Notes under the pieces: generated by a model
Told to the model about the DNA's origin: nothing
The model's database searches: none
The model's input: only the letters and a program-made list of their open reading frames with translations
Source: Eubacteriaceae bacterium
GTDB taxonomy: Bacteria; Bacillota; Clostridia; Lachnospirales; Lachnospiraceae
NCBI GenBank assembly: GCA_902362455.1
Contig: CABIWJ010000002.1
Coordinates: 310,001 to 374,000 of the forward strand
Length of the DNA stretch: 64,000 bases
Direction: 5' to 3'
Made by a program: the position numbers and the translations under genes
Shown: one piece after another, positions 8,012 to 45,161 of the stretch
Numbering within the stretch: the first letter of the stretch is position 1
Layout of the letters: the number at the start of each line of letters is the position of its first letter

Positions 8012-8067
8012 CTAAATGATAAGAACTCTCATAACCGAATATGGTTTTGAGAGTTCTTATCATTTAG
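8012..8067. repeat. 25-bp inverted repeat with one mismatch
   Basis: Bases 8012-8036 and 8043-8067 pair over 25 positions with a single T-T mismatch and a 6-base loop. No T-run follows on the plus strand, while the minus-strand side has AGCTTTTTG. It lies between two plus-strand genes. It may be the end of the ATPase transcript or a palindromic element. Confidence 0.6.
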
Positions 8068-9540: not shown

Positions 9541-9603
9541 GAGAGTGAATTAAGGCTATATGTTATTTAGTTGATGTATAGATTAGCCACTCTCTTTTTA
9601 TTA
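9541..9603 (+). terminator. Terminator of the flavodoxin operon
   Basis: GAGAGTG (9541-9547) pairs with CACTCTC (9588-9594), and GGCTA (9554-9558) pairs with TAGCC inside it; TTTTTATTATT follows. The rest of the gap up to 9719 shows nothing recognisable. Confidence 0.75.
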
Positions 9604-9719
9604 TTTGAGTTTACTCATTGCCAGATGCTTAAAATGGGGTCTCCATCTGTGATATACTTGATTTATGATGTATCGTGTGCAAGTTAATGCTGTCAGATGC
9701 AAAAATTATGAAAAAACTA

Positions 9720-9748
9720 TTGACGAAAATATTCCTAGATGTTATTAT
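9720..9748 (+). promoter_or_regulatory. Probable promoter of the D-lactate dehydrogenase gene
   Basis: TTGACG (9720-9725), 17 bases, then TATTAT (9743-9748). The leader of about 120 bases to the gene is very AT-rich. A 65-codon frame within it (9675-9872) has a composition unlike the neighbouring proteins and was not accepted. No TTGTTAA-type Rex site was found. Confidence 0.5.
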
Positions 9749-13862: not shown

Positions 13863-13912
13863 AAAAAGCTGTAATATTAGAAAGTTTAAATTTTCAATAT
13901 TACAGCTTTTTA
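13863..13912 (+). terminator. Terminator after trpB
   Basis: AAAAAGCTGTAATATT (13863-13878) pairs with AATATTACAGCTTTTT (13896-13911), followed by ATTATAAAA. Confidence 0.9.
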
Positions 13913-29417: not shown

Positions 29418-30260
<843 letters not shown>

Positions 30261-30268
30261 ATAAAGTA

Positions 30269-30320
30269 AAAAGAAAGAATTTCAAGATTATAGTTAATTT
30301 TGAAATTCTTTCTTTTATTA
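30269..30320 (+). terminator. Terminator after the EIIBA gene
   Basis: AAAAGAAAGAATTTCA (30269-30284) pairs perfectly with TGAAATTCTTTCTTTT (30301-30316), followed by ATTATTAT. A second small hairpin, GCCTTT-GAAGAG-AAAGGC (30346-30363), sits between here and the PBP stop and may serve the opposing gene. Confidence 0.85.
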
Positions 30321-30447
30321 TTATATATGAAACTGCACCGTAATAGCCTTTGAAGAGAAAGGCATTTATTCACTTTAGATAAAGGAATATGAAAGTGTAT
30401 ATCATATACAAACAATTGGCTGAATAGTATAAGTATAATATACAAAA

Positions 30448-38356: not shown

Positions 38357-38938
38357 ATGAAAGAAGCAGAAAGGGTTATATATCCGGGACAGATATATAG
38401 GCATTTCAAAGGGAATTTATATCAGATAGTTACAGTTGCCATTCATTCAGAAAGTGGTGAGAAACTGGTAATATACCAGAAATTATATGGAGATTATGCA
38501 GTTCATGCAAGACCATATGATATGTTCCTTAGTGAAGTGGACAGACAGAAATATCCGGATATTAAACAGAAATATCGTTTTGAATTAGTTGATAATGAGA
38601 TAAAATCTAATCAGAATGTAGATGCCGGCATAAAAGAAAGTATTAATCTTACAGACGATATAATTATAAATGATACTTTGAATACTGATAATATAGAGTC
38701 TGTTGATTCAGAAGAAAGTGCAGATAAGAGACTTATTAAATTCTTAGATGCAGATACTTTTGAAGAGAAAAGAAGAGTGCTTATAAATATTAAAGATGGC
38801 ATTACAGACAGACTGATAGACGATATGGCAGCAGCGATTGATGTTACAGTTGATGAGGGTGATATCGATACAAGATTTATGAGCCTTTTAAACTGTATTA
38901 ATACAAGAGCGAAATACGAAGTAAACAGATTAAGATAA
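38357..38938 (+). CDS. DUF1653 domain protein
   Basis: The first about 70 residues match the DUF1653 fold: YPGQIYRHFKGNLYQIVTVA, GEKLVIYQKLYGDYAVHARPYDMF. The following about 120 residues are acidic and mostly helical with no recognised domain (ADKRLIKFLDADTFEEKRRVL). It starts 3 bp after icd, so it is translated from the same mRNA. Function unknown. The protein is 193 aa with no signal peptide. Confidence 0.85.
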   Translation: MKEAERVIYPGQIYRHFKGNLYQIVTVAIHSESGEKLVIYQKLYGDYAVHARPYDMFLSEVDRQKYPDIKQKYRFELVDNEIKSNQNVDAGIKESINLTDDIIINDTLNTDNIESVDSEESADKRLIKFLDADTFEEKRRVLINIKDGITDRLIDDMAAAIDVTVDEGDIDTRFMSLLNCINTRAKYEVNRLR

Positions 38939-39041
38939 GGTTTAATATTTATCATTTTTATGCAATGGCAATATAATATTATTGTAATGTCAATATTTAT
39001 GTTGCTATTGCGTAAACATAAAGCTTATGGAGTAAATACAA

Positions 39042-39086
39042 ATGTCTAAAGAGCAAAAGCAGAGATTTGAAAAAGTAGTTAGTTAA
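39042..39086 (+). CDS. Possible 14-aa ORF
   Basis: ATG 39042 has TATGGAG 8 bases upstream and opens MSKEQKQRFEKVVS before TAA, directly followed by a terminator hairpin. It could be a true small peptide or the stump of a deleted gene. Chance is not excluded. Confidence 0.25.
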   Translation: MSKEQKQRFEKVVS

Positions 39087-39090
39087 ATAT

Positions 39091-39140
39091 AAATGCAGAG
39101 GCATATATTAATTTAAGATTATATAGTCTCTGCATTTTTA
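39091..39140 (+). terminator. Terminator after the 14-aa ORF
   Basis: AAATGCAGAG (39091-39100) pairs with CTCTGCATTT (39128-39137), followed by T and A-T runs. Confidence 0.75.
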
Positions 39141-39304
39141 TATATATATTTTAAATTTATAATTCTGGTCATATAGTTCTAATGCTAAATATCTATGGAT
39201 AATACCTGTCAGGTAAAAAGCATTAAATTGTCTATGTATTTCAGTAACGTTGTCTTTATTTGTTCAGGTGCAAAATCAAATACCTCACACGATTGATCCT
39301 TCTG

Positions 39305-40246
39305 TTAGCTTATTATAGTTCCGACTTTACCGCGGATACCAGCCTTAGCTTTCTCAAGGTTAGTAATAACTGCCTTACGACCTTTCTTAGCTACTACGAA
39401 GTTAAGAGCAGCCTGAATCTTAGGAAGTGTTGTAATGGCATCAAGCTTATTATCTTCAATTAATGAGTTAGCTTCTTCAATACTTAATTCCTTAAGTTCA
39501 GTAGAAGTACCATTCTCATCTGTTATTGTTACATAATCATTTGATGTAAGTATAAGAAGTTCTGATGCATCAATCATATCAGCTAATTTAGCAGCAGTAT
39601 AATCTTTCTCTATAACTGCACTTGCACCCTTTAATCCCTGTGTCTGGTCAAGAACAGGAATACCACCGCCACCTGCAGCAATTACTAACTGGTTAGCATC
39701 AACTAATGCCTTAATAGCATCAATTTCATATATATCGATAGGCTGTGGAGAAGCGATAATTCTACGATAACCTTTACCCTCAGAACTTTCTTCGTATGTT
39801 ACATAGTTACCTTTATGTTCTTCTAAATCAGCTTCCTCTTTAGTCATATAACGACCGATAACCTTAGTTGGATTGTGGAAAGCTTTATCAAAAGGATCAA
39901 CTCTTACCTGTGTAATAATAGTAGAAACAGGTTTGTAAATACCACGATTAAGTAATTCTGTTCGGATTGCATTCTGTAAATCAAAGCCTATGTATCCCTG
40001 GCTCATAGCACCACATACAGACATAGGAGCAACAGTATATTTAGAATCTAAACGGCTGAACTCTGTCATAGCTGTCTGAATCATTCCGACCTGTGGTCCG
40101 TTACTGTGAGTTATTACAACTTCATATTTTTCTTCTACTAAATCAGCAATAGCTTTAGCAGCCTTTTTAACATTTTCCTGCTGCTTAGGAAATGTATCAC
40201 CGAATGCGTTACGTCCAAGTGCAACGACTATCTTTTTATTTTCCAT
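39305..40246 (-). CDS. arcC: Carbamate kinase
   Basis: This 313-aa enzyme transfers phosphate between carbamoyl phosphate and ADP, giving ATP in arginine, agmatine or purine breakdown. It has the family signatures: VVALGRNAFGD at the N terminus, THSNGPQVGMI, IIASPQPIDI, AAGGGGIPVL and the VIEKDYTAAKLA nucleotide segment. Length is typical. No arginine deiminase, ornithine transcarbamylase or other carbamoyl-phosphate source gene is adjacent, so its pathway cannot be told here. It is a single minus-strand gene; GGAGGTAATTT precedes the ATG. Confidence 0.95.
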   Translation of the reverse strand: MENKKIVVALGRNAFGDTFPKQQENVKKAAKAIADLVEEKYEVVITHSNGPQVGMIQTAMTEFSRLDSKYTVAPMSVCGAMSQGYIGFDLQNAIRTELLNRGIYKPVSTIITQVRVDPFDKAFHNPTKVIGRYMTKEEADLEEHKGNYVTYEESSEGKGYRRIIASPQPIDIYEIDAIKALVDANQLVIAAGGGGIPVLDQTQGLKGASAVIEKDYTAAKLADMIDASELLILTSNDYVTITDENGTSTELKELSIEEANSLIEDNKLDAITTLPKIQAALNFVVAKKGRKAVITNLEKAKAGIRGKVGTIIS

Positions 40247-42046: not shown

Positions 42047-42715
42047 ATGGATAAAGATGGTCAGATTAAAGTAAGTGATAAATATTCACTTCAAGGCAGG
42101 GTATTTAACCGTCTGAGAGAAGATATTTTATCGGGGAAATATAAGGAAAATGATGAGTTAAGAGAAATGACAATTGGTGCAGAACTGGGAGTTAGCAGGA
42201 CTCCGGTTCGCGAAGCACTAAGACAGTTAGAATTCGAGGGACTTGTAAGCATCATACCTAATAAAGGCGCATATGTTATCGGAATCAGTAAAAAAGACTT
42301 AAAGGATATATATGAGATGAGAGCCAGATTAGAGGGCTTATGTGCAAGATGGGCTACTAAAAATGCTACAGATGAGAACATTTCGAAACTCGAAGAGATT
42401 TCAGACTTGTCAGAATTTCACTATGTAAAGAAAAAATTTGATAAAGTATTAGAACTTGATAATGAATTTCACGAATTATTATATGAGATGGCTGATAGTA
42501 AAATGTTATATAAGACATTATCAGACTTTCATCACTATTTAGAAATAATAAGAAAGAAAACATTATCTTCTAATGAAAGAGTATGTGATTCGATTAAAGA
42601 ACATAAAGATATCGTTGAAGCTATAAAAGCTAAAGATAAGGACAGAGCAGAAGAATTGGCAATTCTTCATATGAAGAATACGATAAAGAATATCGAAGCC
42701 CATAAATTATTGTAG
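42047..42715 (+). CDS. GntR-family regulator, FCD (FadR-like) subfamily
   Basis: This 222-aa protein has an N-terminal winged helix (LQGRVFNRLREDILSGKY, then LGVSRTPVREALRQLEFEGLV) and an all-helical FCD domain of about 140 residues (DIYEMRARLEGLCARWA, ELDNEFHELLYEMADS). The FCD domain usually binds an organic acid and sometimes a metal. It starts 8 bp after the synthase gene with AGGGGTG upstream, so it is co-transcribed. The palindrome over the operon promoter makes autoregulation by a metabolite such as citrate plausible (inference). The last codons fall at the border of the large palindrome. Confidence 0.93.
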   Translation: MDKDGQIKVSDKYSLQGRVFNRLREDILSGKYKENDELREMTIGAELGVSRTPVREALRQLEFEGLVSIIPNKGAYVIGISKKDLKDIYEMRARLEGLCARWATKNATDENISKLEEISDLSEFHYVKKKFDKVLELDNEFHELLYEMADSKMLYKTLSDFHHYLEIIRKKTLSSNERVCDSIKEHKDIVEAIKAKDKDRAEELAILHMKNTIKNIEAHKLL

Positions 42716-43258
42716 AATATATAATGCTCAGACCTTGCTCATACAAATGTAGTTTATATTTATCTGTTAAAGTAAATTTGATATATAAATATCGAAACTC
42801 CTTGTAAGTAATTGCGTAAATTTGTAAGATATCATTTTTTGGCTCAAATTTTGTGTACATTCAACAGACATACATTTAAGCCGAGATGTCCGGCTATGAC
42901 ACACGCTTTCATATTTCCTTTATCTAGTGAGAGTAAATGCTGCCTTCTGCAGAGGTTATTACGGTGCAGTTAATCAAACGCGCTCCGCTTGAACGGTGAT
43001 TTACTGCACCGACCTTTTGCATCAGGCAGCATTAACTCTCACACGATACGTCATAAATCAAGTGTGTGACATAGCCGGACACATCGGCTTAAATGTATGG
43101 CATTGAATGAACATAAATAATCGTAAGAGCCAAAAAAAGATATCTACAAATTAGCAATTCTTACAAAAGTTCGATATTTATATATGCAAATTTACTTAAC
43201 ACAGATAATTTAATTCTATTTTGTATGAGTAAAGTCTGAGTATTTATATATTATACAA
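42710..43258. repeat. 549-bp interrupted palindrome between convergent genes
   Basis: The left arm (42710-42976) and right arm (42997-43258) are reverse complements with roughly 80% matching by eye, and many blocks pair in register. These include CTCATACAAA, GTAAATTTG, TATATAAATATCGAA, TTTTTTGGCTC, CATACATTTAAGCCG, TGTCCGGCTATG, AATGCTGCCT and CGGTGCAGT. The apex is a 20-base GC-richer loop (42977-42996). TTGTA at the left end contains the GntR stop, and TACAA at the right end overlaps the ABC-F stop. No ORF is inside. It may be a MITE-like foldback element, a structured RNA, or a giant two-way terminator. Confidence 0.85.
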
Positions 43259-45161
43259 GTGTTTCCCATAATTCGTATAGCTTCTCAAGTTCACTATTAA
43301 CGGCTTCGATTTCTTTAGTAATCTCCATTAATTTACCGACATCAGAAGCAATATCAGGATTATTCATCTCTTCTGAAAGAGCATTGTTTTTTTCTTCAAG
43401 TTCGTTTATACGTCCTTCGGTTTTCTTTAATTCATTTTGTTTTTTACGAAGCCTGGCCTGTTCATCTTTCATAGTCTGCCAGTCAGCTTTAGAAGAAGAA
43501 ACAGCAGAAGTGTCTTTGGTTTCAGCGGCTTCAGGTGCGGCATATATAGCTGTTAACTCAGCTTTTTTCTCGAGATAATAATCATAATTGCCTATATAAT
43601 TTACAATCTTATTATTAGTCAGCTCTATAATTCTGCTAGCGGTTTTATTTATGAAATATCGGTCGTGGGATACATAGAGAATAGTCCCATCATAACTGTT
43701 AATCGCATTTTCAAGGATTTCCTTAGATGTAATATCTAAATGGTTCGTAGGCTCATCAAGAATAAGGAAGTTAGCATTTGATAACATAAGTTTTGCAAGC
43801 GAAACACGTCCACGTTCACCACCGCTTAAGTCTTTAATCTGCTTAAATACATCATCACCAGTGAATAAAAATGCTGCCAGCACATTACGAATTTCTGTAT
43901 TAGTCATATCAGGATATGCATCTGAGATTTCTTCAAACAAAGTATTTTCCATAGTTAAAACATGATGCTCCTGGTCGTAGTATCCGATTTCAACCTTGCT
44001 GCCTAATTTAGTTGAACCGCTGTCGGCATCGATTATTCCATTTATGATTTTCAAGATGGTAGTCTTGCCTGTACCGTTATTACCGATTATACTGACTTTT
44101 TCGCCACGTTTGATTTCAAAGTTAATATCTGAGAAAAGATGGTTATCACCAAAAGATTTAGAAAGATTTTCTACCGATAATACATCTTTACCACTTGTAA
44201 TCCTTGGAGTTAATTTAAGATGCATTTCATCATCAATATATTTTGGCTTTTCTACAACTTCGATTTTATTTAGCTGTTTTTCACGACTTTCAGCTCTTTT
44301 AATTGATTTCTCACGATTAAAAGATTTGAGCTTCTCGATAACCTCTTTCTGATGCTTGATTTCCTGCTGCTGATTAAGATATTTTTTAAGTTCAGCTTCT
44401 CTTAAAGAGGCTTTCTTAGTGGCATAATCGCTGTAATTACCATTATATGTAGTACATTTTGTATTCTCTATCTCTACAACTTTAGTTACGATTTTATCAA
44501 GGAAATAACGGTCATGGGAGATTATGATAACAGCACCTTTGTAATTGCTTAAGAAACCTTCTAACCATGCAATTGAGTTAAGGTCTAAGTGGTTAGTAGG
44601 CTCATCTAATAATATGATATCAGGCTTAGATAACAGAATCTTACTTAAGAATACTCGTGTTTTCTGTCCGCCTGACAGAGTTGATATCTTTCTGTCAAAA
44701 TCTTCCTCTGCAAAGCCTAAGCCCTTTAAGACACCTGTAATTTCGCTCTTATAAGCATATCCGTCATTTAATTCGAAAGTATGTGTTAATTTAGAATAGT
44801 TTTCAAGAAGTTTTTCTAATTCTTTACCCTCGGCAGTTTTCATTTCAGCTTCTAATGAACGGATTGTACTTTCCATTTCTATAATCTCTTTTTTGACATC
44901 TAACATTTCTTCGTAGATAGTATGCCCGCCTGCTATATCAGGGTGCTGCGATAAATATGCAAGAGTTTTATTTTTAGCTACGGTTATAATTCCGTCATCA
45001 GGCTTTAATTCTCCTGTAATTATCTTAAATAATGTCGATTTACCCGCACCATTAATTCCGACTATTGCAACTTTCTCTCTATCTTCTGCATGAAATGAGC
45101 AGTTATCTAATATAACCTTACTGTCAAAACTTTTACTTATGTTACTACATGATAAAATCAT
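43251..45161 (-). CDS. ABC-F family ATPase
   Basis: This 636-aa soluble protein has two ABC domains and no membrane part: first Walker A GINGAGKST (residues 35-43), signature LSGGQKTR, Walker B with LLDEPTNHLDL; second Walker A GNNGTGKTT, signature LSGGERGR, LILDEPTNHLD. The linker between them is rich in Lys/Glu (KKYLNQQQEIKHQKEVIEKL). A C-terminal coiled coil (KADWQTMKDEQARLRKKQ) resembles YdiF/Uup-type ABC-F proteins, which act on ribosomes. A resistance role is possible but not indicated. The gene ends at the edge of the 549-bp palindrome. Confidence 0.93.
   Translation of the reverse strand: MILSCSNISKSFDSKVILDNCSFHAEDREKVAIVGINGAGKSTLFKIITGELKPDDGIITVAKNKTLAYLSQHPDIAGGHTIYEEMLDVKKEIIEMESTIRSLEAEMKTAEGKELEKLLENYSKLTHTFELNDGYAYKSEITGVLKGLGFAEEDFDRKISTLSGGQKTRVFLSKILLSKPDIILLDEPTNHLDLNSIAWLEGFLSNYKGAVIIISHDRYFLDKIVTKVVEIENTKCTTYNGNYSDYATKKASLREAELKKYLNQQQEIKHQKEVIEKLKSFNREKSIKRAESREKQLNKIEVVEKPKYIDDEMHLKLTPRITSGKDVLSVENLSKSFGDNHLFSDINFEIKRGEKVSIIGNNGTGKTTILKIINGIIDADSGSTKLGSKVEIGYYDQEHHVLTMENTLFEEISDAYPDMTNTEIRNVLAAFLFTGDDVFKQIKDLSGGERGRVSLAKLMLSNANFLILDEPTNHLDITSKEILENAINSYDGTILYVSHDRYFINKTASRIIELTNNKIVNYIGNYDYYLEKKAELTAIYAAPEAAETKDTSAVSSSKADWQTMKDEQARLRKKQNELKKTEGRINELEEKNNALSEEMNNPDIASDVGKLMEITKEIEAVNSELEKLYELWETLV

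Follow-up and report, generated by a model that had tools for sequence, protein, structure and literature searches.

INTRODUCTION

REP and REPIN palindromes, together with the palindrome-associated transposable elements, are repeated extragenic palindromes. The element described here shares this character, but its body is far longer and its ends match those of a DDE-type IS4 element. It also resembles the bacterial MITEs of IS4-family insertion sequences (ISs), which are short, lack a transposase gene, are present in many, mostly extragenic copies, and carry the terminal repeats of an IS. The element differs from these MITEs in having an entire body that is an imperfect palindrome, arms that evolve in concert and a palindrome that continues into the flanking host DNA; in addition, no target duplication was seen.

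Template switching at quasipalindromes has reportedly been studied in E. coli. In yeast, template switching between the arms of an inverted repeat homogenises the arms and inverts the spacer (PMC8604942), and template switching is also described as creating and maintaining hairpins (PMC8794818). Arm homogenisation and spacer inversion are the likenesses to the present case; what would set it apart from known quasipalindrome switching is a mobile element as the seed, arms of ∼260 bp, and an expansion into adjacent genes that occurs at many loci of one genome. In mitochondrial genes of Nematomorpha, coding sequence is overlapped by long inverted repeats and the proteins nevertheless remain functional (PMC6649704). 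Those repeats are perfect and lie within mitochondrial genes, whereas the palindrome described here is imperfect, is centred on a MITE, and reaches the ends of two bacterial genes.

RESULTS

The stretch of DNA analysed here (the window; 64,000 nucleotides of a contig from an Eubacteriaceae bacterium) contains an imperfect palindrome of 549 bp at positions 42710 to 43258, which was delimited by arm alignment, folding and inverted-repeat detection and was not assigned a strand. The left neighbor is a GntR-like regulator gene (42047 to 42715, + strand; open reading frame of 222 aa) and the right neighbor an ABC-F-type ATPase gene (43251 to 45161, − strand; 636 aa). Both names are putative, that of the ATPase coming from a preliminary description of this DNA and that of the regulator from the same description and a helix-turn-helix-type sequence. 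That description had reported a palindrome with two arms of ∼260 bp that occupies precisely the interval separating the two convergent stop codons. In an alignment of positions 42710 to 43258 anchored at the apex, the arms formed Watson-Crick pairs at 216 of 259 aligned positions, and the reported fit proved true to within a few bases, the palindrome sharing 6 nt with the 3′ end of the GntR gene and 8 nt with that of the ABC-F gene. Folding of the region from 42700 to 43265 gave −265.5 kcal/mol for the + strand (z = −24.7) and −262.6 kcal/mol for the − strand (z = −22.9); none of 100 shuffled sequences was as stable for either strand. No open reading frame (ORF) of 80 aa or more was present within the palindrome in the ORF list of the window. 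Inverted repeats of ordinary size, with arms of 24 to 34 nt, are located elsewhere in the window at 8012 to 8067, 13863 to 13911 and 30257 to 30328.

An ortholog of the palindrome, 97% identical to that of the window, was found between the same two genes in the rumen MAG RUG015 (G001), indicating that a single faulty assembly cannot account for the structure; the palindrome is real and is not a one-assembly artifact. A related hairpin was present in the complete megaplasmid record of L. eligens ATCC 27750. Orthologs of the GntR gene (E < 1e-94) were detected in five other genomes of the genus. The gene order hcs-gntR-abcF was observed without the palindrome in genomes G004 and G008, the convergent abcF gene lying ∼10 bases past the gntR stop in the former and ∼220 bases past it in the latter. 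In G006, abcF is farther from gntR than in these two genomes, and abcF was not found in the examined gntR locus of G007 and G009. The preliminary description had proposed searching related genomes for the arm sequence and for empty sites, and both copies and empty orthologous sites were found.

A DNA search of 97 related genomes, in which six candidates were scored in each genome, detected at least six long matching places in RUG015 and at least six in Lachnospira UBA2821 (G023). The apex motif AATCAAACGCGC..GCTTGAACG (42972 to 42995, + strand), identified by arm alignment and pattern scans, was then used as an exact pattern, which overlooks diverged copies and matched 51 stretches among the named genome contigs and 2 of the 397 genomes of the family. 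Eight of the 51 stretches were in unrelated bacteria and were rejected as family members, there being no hairpin at these places and the matches hence being due to chance. A covariance model (R1) was built on 40 cores and run on 60 genomes, with 56 candidates scored in each. The conserved core used for the model corresponds in the window to positions 42922 to 43055 (+ strand) and comprises the apex and the flank of an asymmetric internal loop; its score of 151.2 bits (E = 2.2e-32) is a match by construction, because the window core is among the 40 model sequences. In RUG015 the model gave 51 matches, 7 of which were the opposite strand of a listed place, leaving at least 44 places (37 strong and 7 weak), and at least 10 places were detected in UBA2821; some of the places at contig ends may be one and the same copy. 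Among the candidates scored in the remaining 58 of the 60 genomes, 8 of which belong to the same genus, there were no matches, a result that diverged copies may escape. Five places are located in plasmid records, of which two are from L. eligens and a third is from A. rectalis. No match to phage records was obtained with blastn, and none of the viral contigs contained the exact apex pattern. Nothing recognisable as this hairpin family was found in the literature, in a search that covered few subscription journals and is, therefore, weak evidence of absence.

Several RUG015 contigs end inside element copies (e.g., L189, L193, L194, L201, L202 and L203), which suggests that the hairpins break short-read assembly and makes the copy count uncertain. 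The cores of UBA2821 (e.g., L039, L060 and L073) have ∼30 extra apex bases that are mostly missing from the cores of other genomes and are also present in L066, from RUG297. A one-armed relic of the same element family is located at 9592 to 9740 of the window, with a weak core match at 9664 to 9740 on the − strand (E = 0.00096). The part from 9592 to 9704 is ∼71 to 83% identical to many RUG015 copies, and the region as a whole is 94% identical to RUG015 contig C9. Positions 38930 to 39320 of the window, which lie opposite a weak RUG015 match, are not a copy.

Weak or contig-edge RUG015 copies (palindrome score of 59 or less) were excluded before 26 RUG015 rows were aligned with the window copy to give 27 rows. 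The conserved body stopped near ACTCARACTTCGCACATACA and its complement, and the copies diverged outside these points. This alignment, together with end matching, delimited a MITE-like mobile element of ∼516 bp at 42726 to 43241 (no strand assigned; orientation defined by the apex motif). Its left terminal repeat (42726 to 42745, + strand) is 4 edits and its right terminal repeat (43222 to 43241, − strand) 3 edits from the consensus ACTCAGACTTCGCACATACA. The same alignment, in which the ends are common but diverged, ruled out the possibility that each copy had acquired outer arms entirely of its own. A pattern for the ends, with 3 mismatches allowed, gave 42 matches in RUG015 versus 1 for a reversed control.

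The family end ACTCAAACTTCGCACATACAT differed by 1 mismatch in 21 positions from the end ACTCAAACTTCGCACATAAAT of an IS in Lachnospira UBA2821, whose second end falls at the contig start. The 457-aa transposase of this IS scored 602.8 bits against NCBIfam NF049925 (IS4_4; cut-off, 250) and also matched Pfam DDE_5 and DDE_Tnp_1. In RUG015 an IS-like end was found at a contig edge, with no more of the IS there, and a search at E 1e-50 did not detect its transposase in that genome; the same search detected a fragment of the transposase in G007. When direct repeats at the ends of copies were compared with those of swaps, no convincing target-site duplication was detected: repeats of 2 to 3 bases occurred at about the swap expectation, those of 4 and 6 bases were slightly more frequent than expected, and none of 8 to 10 bases was present. 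Age and flank copying could have erased target duplications. As its ends are common to those of an IS4-family IS, IS4-type MITE is the most fitting name for the element. It is short and has no transposase gene, its copies are dispersed and are present at some orthologous sites and absent from others, and its terminal repeats are IS-like; of the readings offered in the preliminary description, a foldback or MITE-type mobile element was thus supported. Mobilisation is probably effected in trans by an IS4-type transposase. Very short derivatives of ∼75 to 115 bp, with little beyond the two terminal repeats, were also observed (L199, ∼1600 to 1685; L200, 477 to 551; L192, ∼1354 to 1438; and L190). 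Many IS ends of the same type were located ∼75 to 130 bases inside the contig ends of G007 and G035 (L222, L229, L234, L223, L230 and L235), a clustering that suggests multicopy IS4-type elements collapsed in assembly.

Both neighboring genes were available for 33 of 35 RUG015 copies, the genes being mechanical longest-ORF picks with spurious ORFs within palindromes filtered out. Nineteen copies were between convergent, 11 between tandem and 3 between divergent genes, and the convergent share was higher than that among gene pairs in the window (6 of 48; p = 2e-5). No convergent bias was observed in UBA2821, where 1 of 10 copies was convergent, 5 were tandem and 4 were divergent. Among 51 stops facing RUG015 palindromes, 18 were within 10 nt of the edge and 16 were overlapped by more than 10 nt (one of the latter, at L132, is the stop of a possibly spurious ORF at a contig edge), compared to 1 overlap of this extent for 17 facing starts (p = 0.05). 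This pattern fits, weakly, with growth being limited where function is at stake.

The palindrome reaches past the element into host DNA, a point that was missed in the preliminary description. In the window the 3′ end of the GntR gene, with its stop codon, falls within the left extension (42710 to 42725) and that of the ABC-F gene within the right extension (43242 to 43258), neither extension being assigned a strand. Extensions were assessed with a flank test in which element ends were taken from alignment columns, small shifts were allowed for true and swapped pairs alike, and L147, the ortholog of the window copy, was left out. The flanks of one copy were complementary beyond all 650 swapped pairs in 11 of 26 copies, over extents of 37 to 110 bases; complementarity was above the 99th percentile of swaps in 16 copies and below it in 10, and 15 copies were not above all swaps. 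For the window copy, the extension was ∼16 to 22 bp per side, just long enough to include both stop codons, and its score of 15.1 was attained by 1 of the 650 swapped pairs.

Insertion into pre-existing palindromes, such as terminator hairpins, would make the flank complementarity a remnant of the old target and could by itself explain the short extension in the window. ISs that target extragenic palindromes are known (PMC1525189), and the convergent bias in RUG015 is in keeping with such a target. We consider this origin very unlikely in view of the nadK-argR locus and of the longer extensions. The element is present between nadK and argR only in RUG015; all 8 of the other genomes compared from the genus have the nadK match 28 to 100 bases from the argR start, without room for, or sign of, a palindrome. 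The extensions of 37 to 110 bp in the 11 copies enter conserved coding DNA.

Comparison of sequences at three loci points to conserved coding DNA as the probable source of the inverted copies, and the palindromes there seem to have expanded into genes of the host. The nadK coding end was recognisably conserved in nine genomes, while only RUG015 carried, on the side of argR, an imperfect copy of it in inverted orientation, the best patch having 24 identities over 26 positions as judged by eye. At a second locus, the end of the RUG015 apbE gene is an inverted imperfect copy of the codons for the rnfB 4Fe-4S motif. Conservation was compared on the rnfB side, where relatives retain the codons of the cysteine motif (CxxCGKC in 7 of 7 and CxNCGKCKEKCPVK in 5). 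At L135 the palindrome runs ∼100 bases into both genes. The tail of the Sir2-like protein encoded there has F at a position with L, I or M in 115 of 116 homologs compared, and the nearest homolog, 91% identical, has L. This F lies in a patch that is almost the same as the sequence of the opposite gene, and V-F was invariant in 108 of 108 homologs of that gene. Homologs were drawn in both cases from the best 120 hits, with P0002, P0004 and the near-identical P0122 to P0132 left out.

The arms of the palindrome change in concert. Complementary double changes were present in 375 cells (25 aligned copies and 192 consensus pairs, with L147 and L146 left out), a count inflated by the shared ancestry of copies, versus a mean of 103 and a maximum of 160 in 500 trials in which right arms were swapped among copies. 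Among the 13 sites that differ between the window copy and its RUG015 ortholog, there were 3 exactly paired substitutions (42880/43088, 42893/43075 and 42941/43028), one of them a transversion. At the cls site, examined in four genomes, the centre had opposite orientations in L029 and L053 versus L036 and L075. The right strand of the core complemented the left GTAAATGC exactly in 1 of 40 cores and the mismatch was kept in 39 of 40, suggesting that part of the core is protected from, or beyond the reach of, arm copying.

A possible but doubtful substitute for template switching is that an extruded hairpin or cruciform undergoes mismatch repair or recombination between its arms, or that flanks are copied during aberrant transposition. 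The same paired changes would be expected from repair or recombination between arms, and recombination would also invert the centre, as at the cls site. Mismatch repair alone would give only slow extension of the stem into unrelated flanks, as opposed to inverted coding patches with ∼24/26 identity. Sequence data do not cleanly separate the repair, recombination and template-switch routes. Both arm homogenisation and spacer inversion, the marks of template switching, are present, and from these we infer that the best mechanism is template switching during replication, with the hairpin positioning the switch.

Two further proposals of the preliminary description, a self-complementary structured RNA and a block of convergent transcription through double-stranded RNA, invoke a role for transcripts. 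If the locus encoded a structured RNA, or insulated the convergent genes from each other in both directions, with pairing kept by selection on transcripts, then the very stable fold on both strands, the covariation in the core, the convergent bias in RUG015 and the slow divergence of the window copy (see below) would be accounted for. The stable fold and the covariation did emerge from the folding and covariation analysis recommended in that description, but a preference for G-U pairs did not, and the RNA reading was left unsupported. Transversions made up 178 of the 375 paired changes. Mispaired cells comprised 142 G.T, 116 A.C and 363 others, so that G.T was not favoured over A.C and a wobble excess was unclear on either strand (p = 0.12). 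With RNAalifold on the 40 cores, varying pairs mostly swapped Watson-Crick types, with few G-U pairs, outside two small apical helices. Rfam gave no match in the window at gathering scores, copies are also located between tandem and divergent genes, and stepwise compensation would not yield inverted copies of coding ends. A transcript-based origin of the pairing is, on this evidence, improbable, and neither of the two proposals was upheld.

The window copy has diverged slowly. It differed from its RUG015 ortholog at 13 of 534 sites (2.4%). For two intergenic stretches close by, the count was 41 of 668 sites (6.1%; p = 0.002); another such stretch (38941 to 39302) was excluded from this comparison because its alignment was badly gapped. 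Third codon positions differed at 276 of 2,647 sites (10.4%). Unbiased arm copying should not slow divergence. The low divergence makes a host role conceivable, and possible host constraint on the window copy is the best remaining argument for function.

DISCUSSION

The explanation that we consider probable is that a palindromic IS4-type MITE inserted between convergent genes and that arms and flanks were later copied at the hairpin. A nonautonomous MITE with IS4-family ends and a palindromic body of ∼500 bp would insert between two convergent genes, its transposition presumably being provided in trans by an IS4-type transposase. In single-stranded DNA, the hairpin would hold both arms, and the host DNA at its base, side by side, and a polymerase may at times switch template and copy a patch of one side onto the other. 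The consequences that were observed are concerted arms and, at one orthologous site (cls), a centre in both orientations. Elsewhere in the family, several loci have patches of host flank, coding 3′ ends included, inverted on the opposite side, with the palindrome outgrowing the element. Growth should be limited at gene ends that matter.

Several observations stand against this explanation. There is no convincing target-site duplication, a search at E 1e-50 did not recover the transposase from RUG015, and the ends of the window copy are 3 to 4 edits off the consensus. The flanks of 15 of 26 copies were not above all swaps, the core mismatch was present in 39 of 40 cores, the window copy diverged slowly, and only 1 of 10 UBA2821 copies was convergent.

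On balance, we also favour a wider reading in which palindromic mobile elements seed outward-growing palindromes, with patches of gene ends being copied inverted across the element at many loci of one genome. As part of the same reading, outward copying, repeated during replication, would overwrite DNA between genes and, in some cases, codons for the C terminus of an unrelated protein. MITEs are known and so is the correction of imperfect palindromes by template switching. Acting together, the two would be a standing mutational force at the 3′ ends of genes, as growing palindromes would add inverted copies of gene tails and can alter protein C termini. Arm copying would also mimic RNA covariation without selection on RNA, which calls for caution in covariation-based RNA discovery. 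The family offers many replicate loci, some of them in cultured gut bacteria (Lachnospira eligens), in which growth, inversion and concerted change are measurable.
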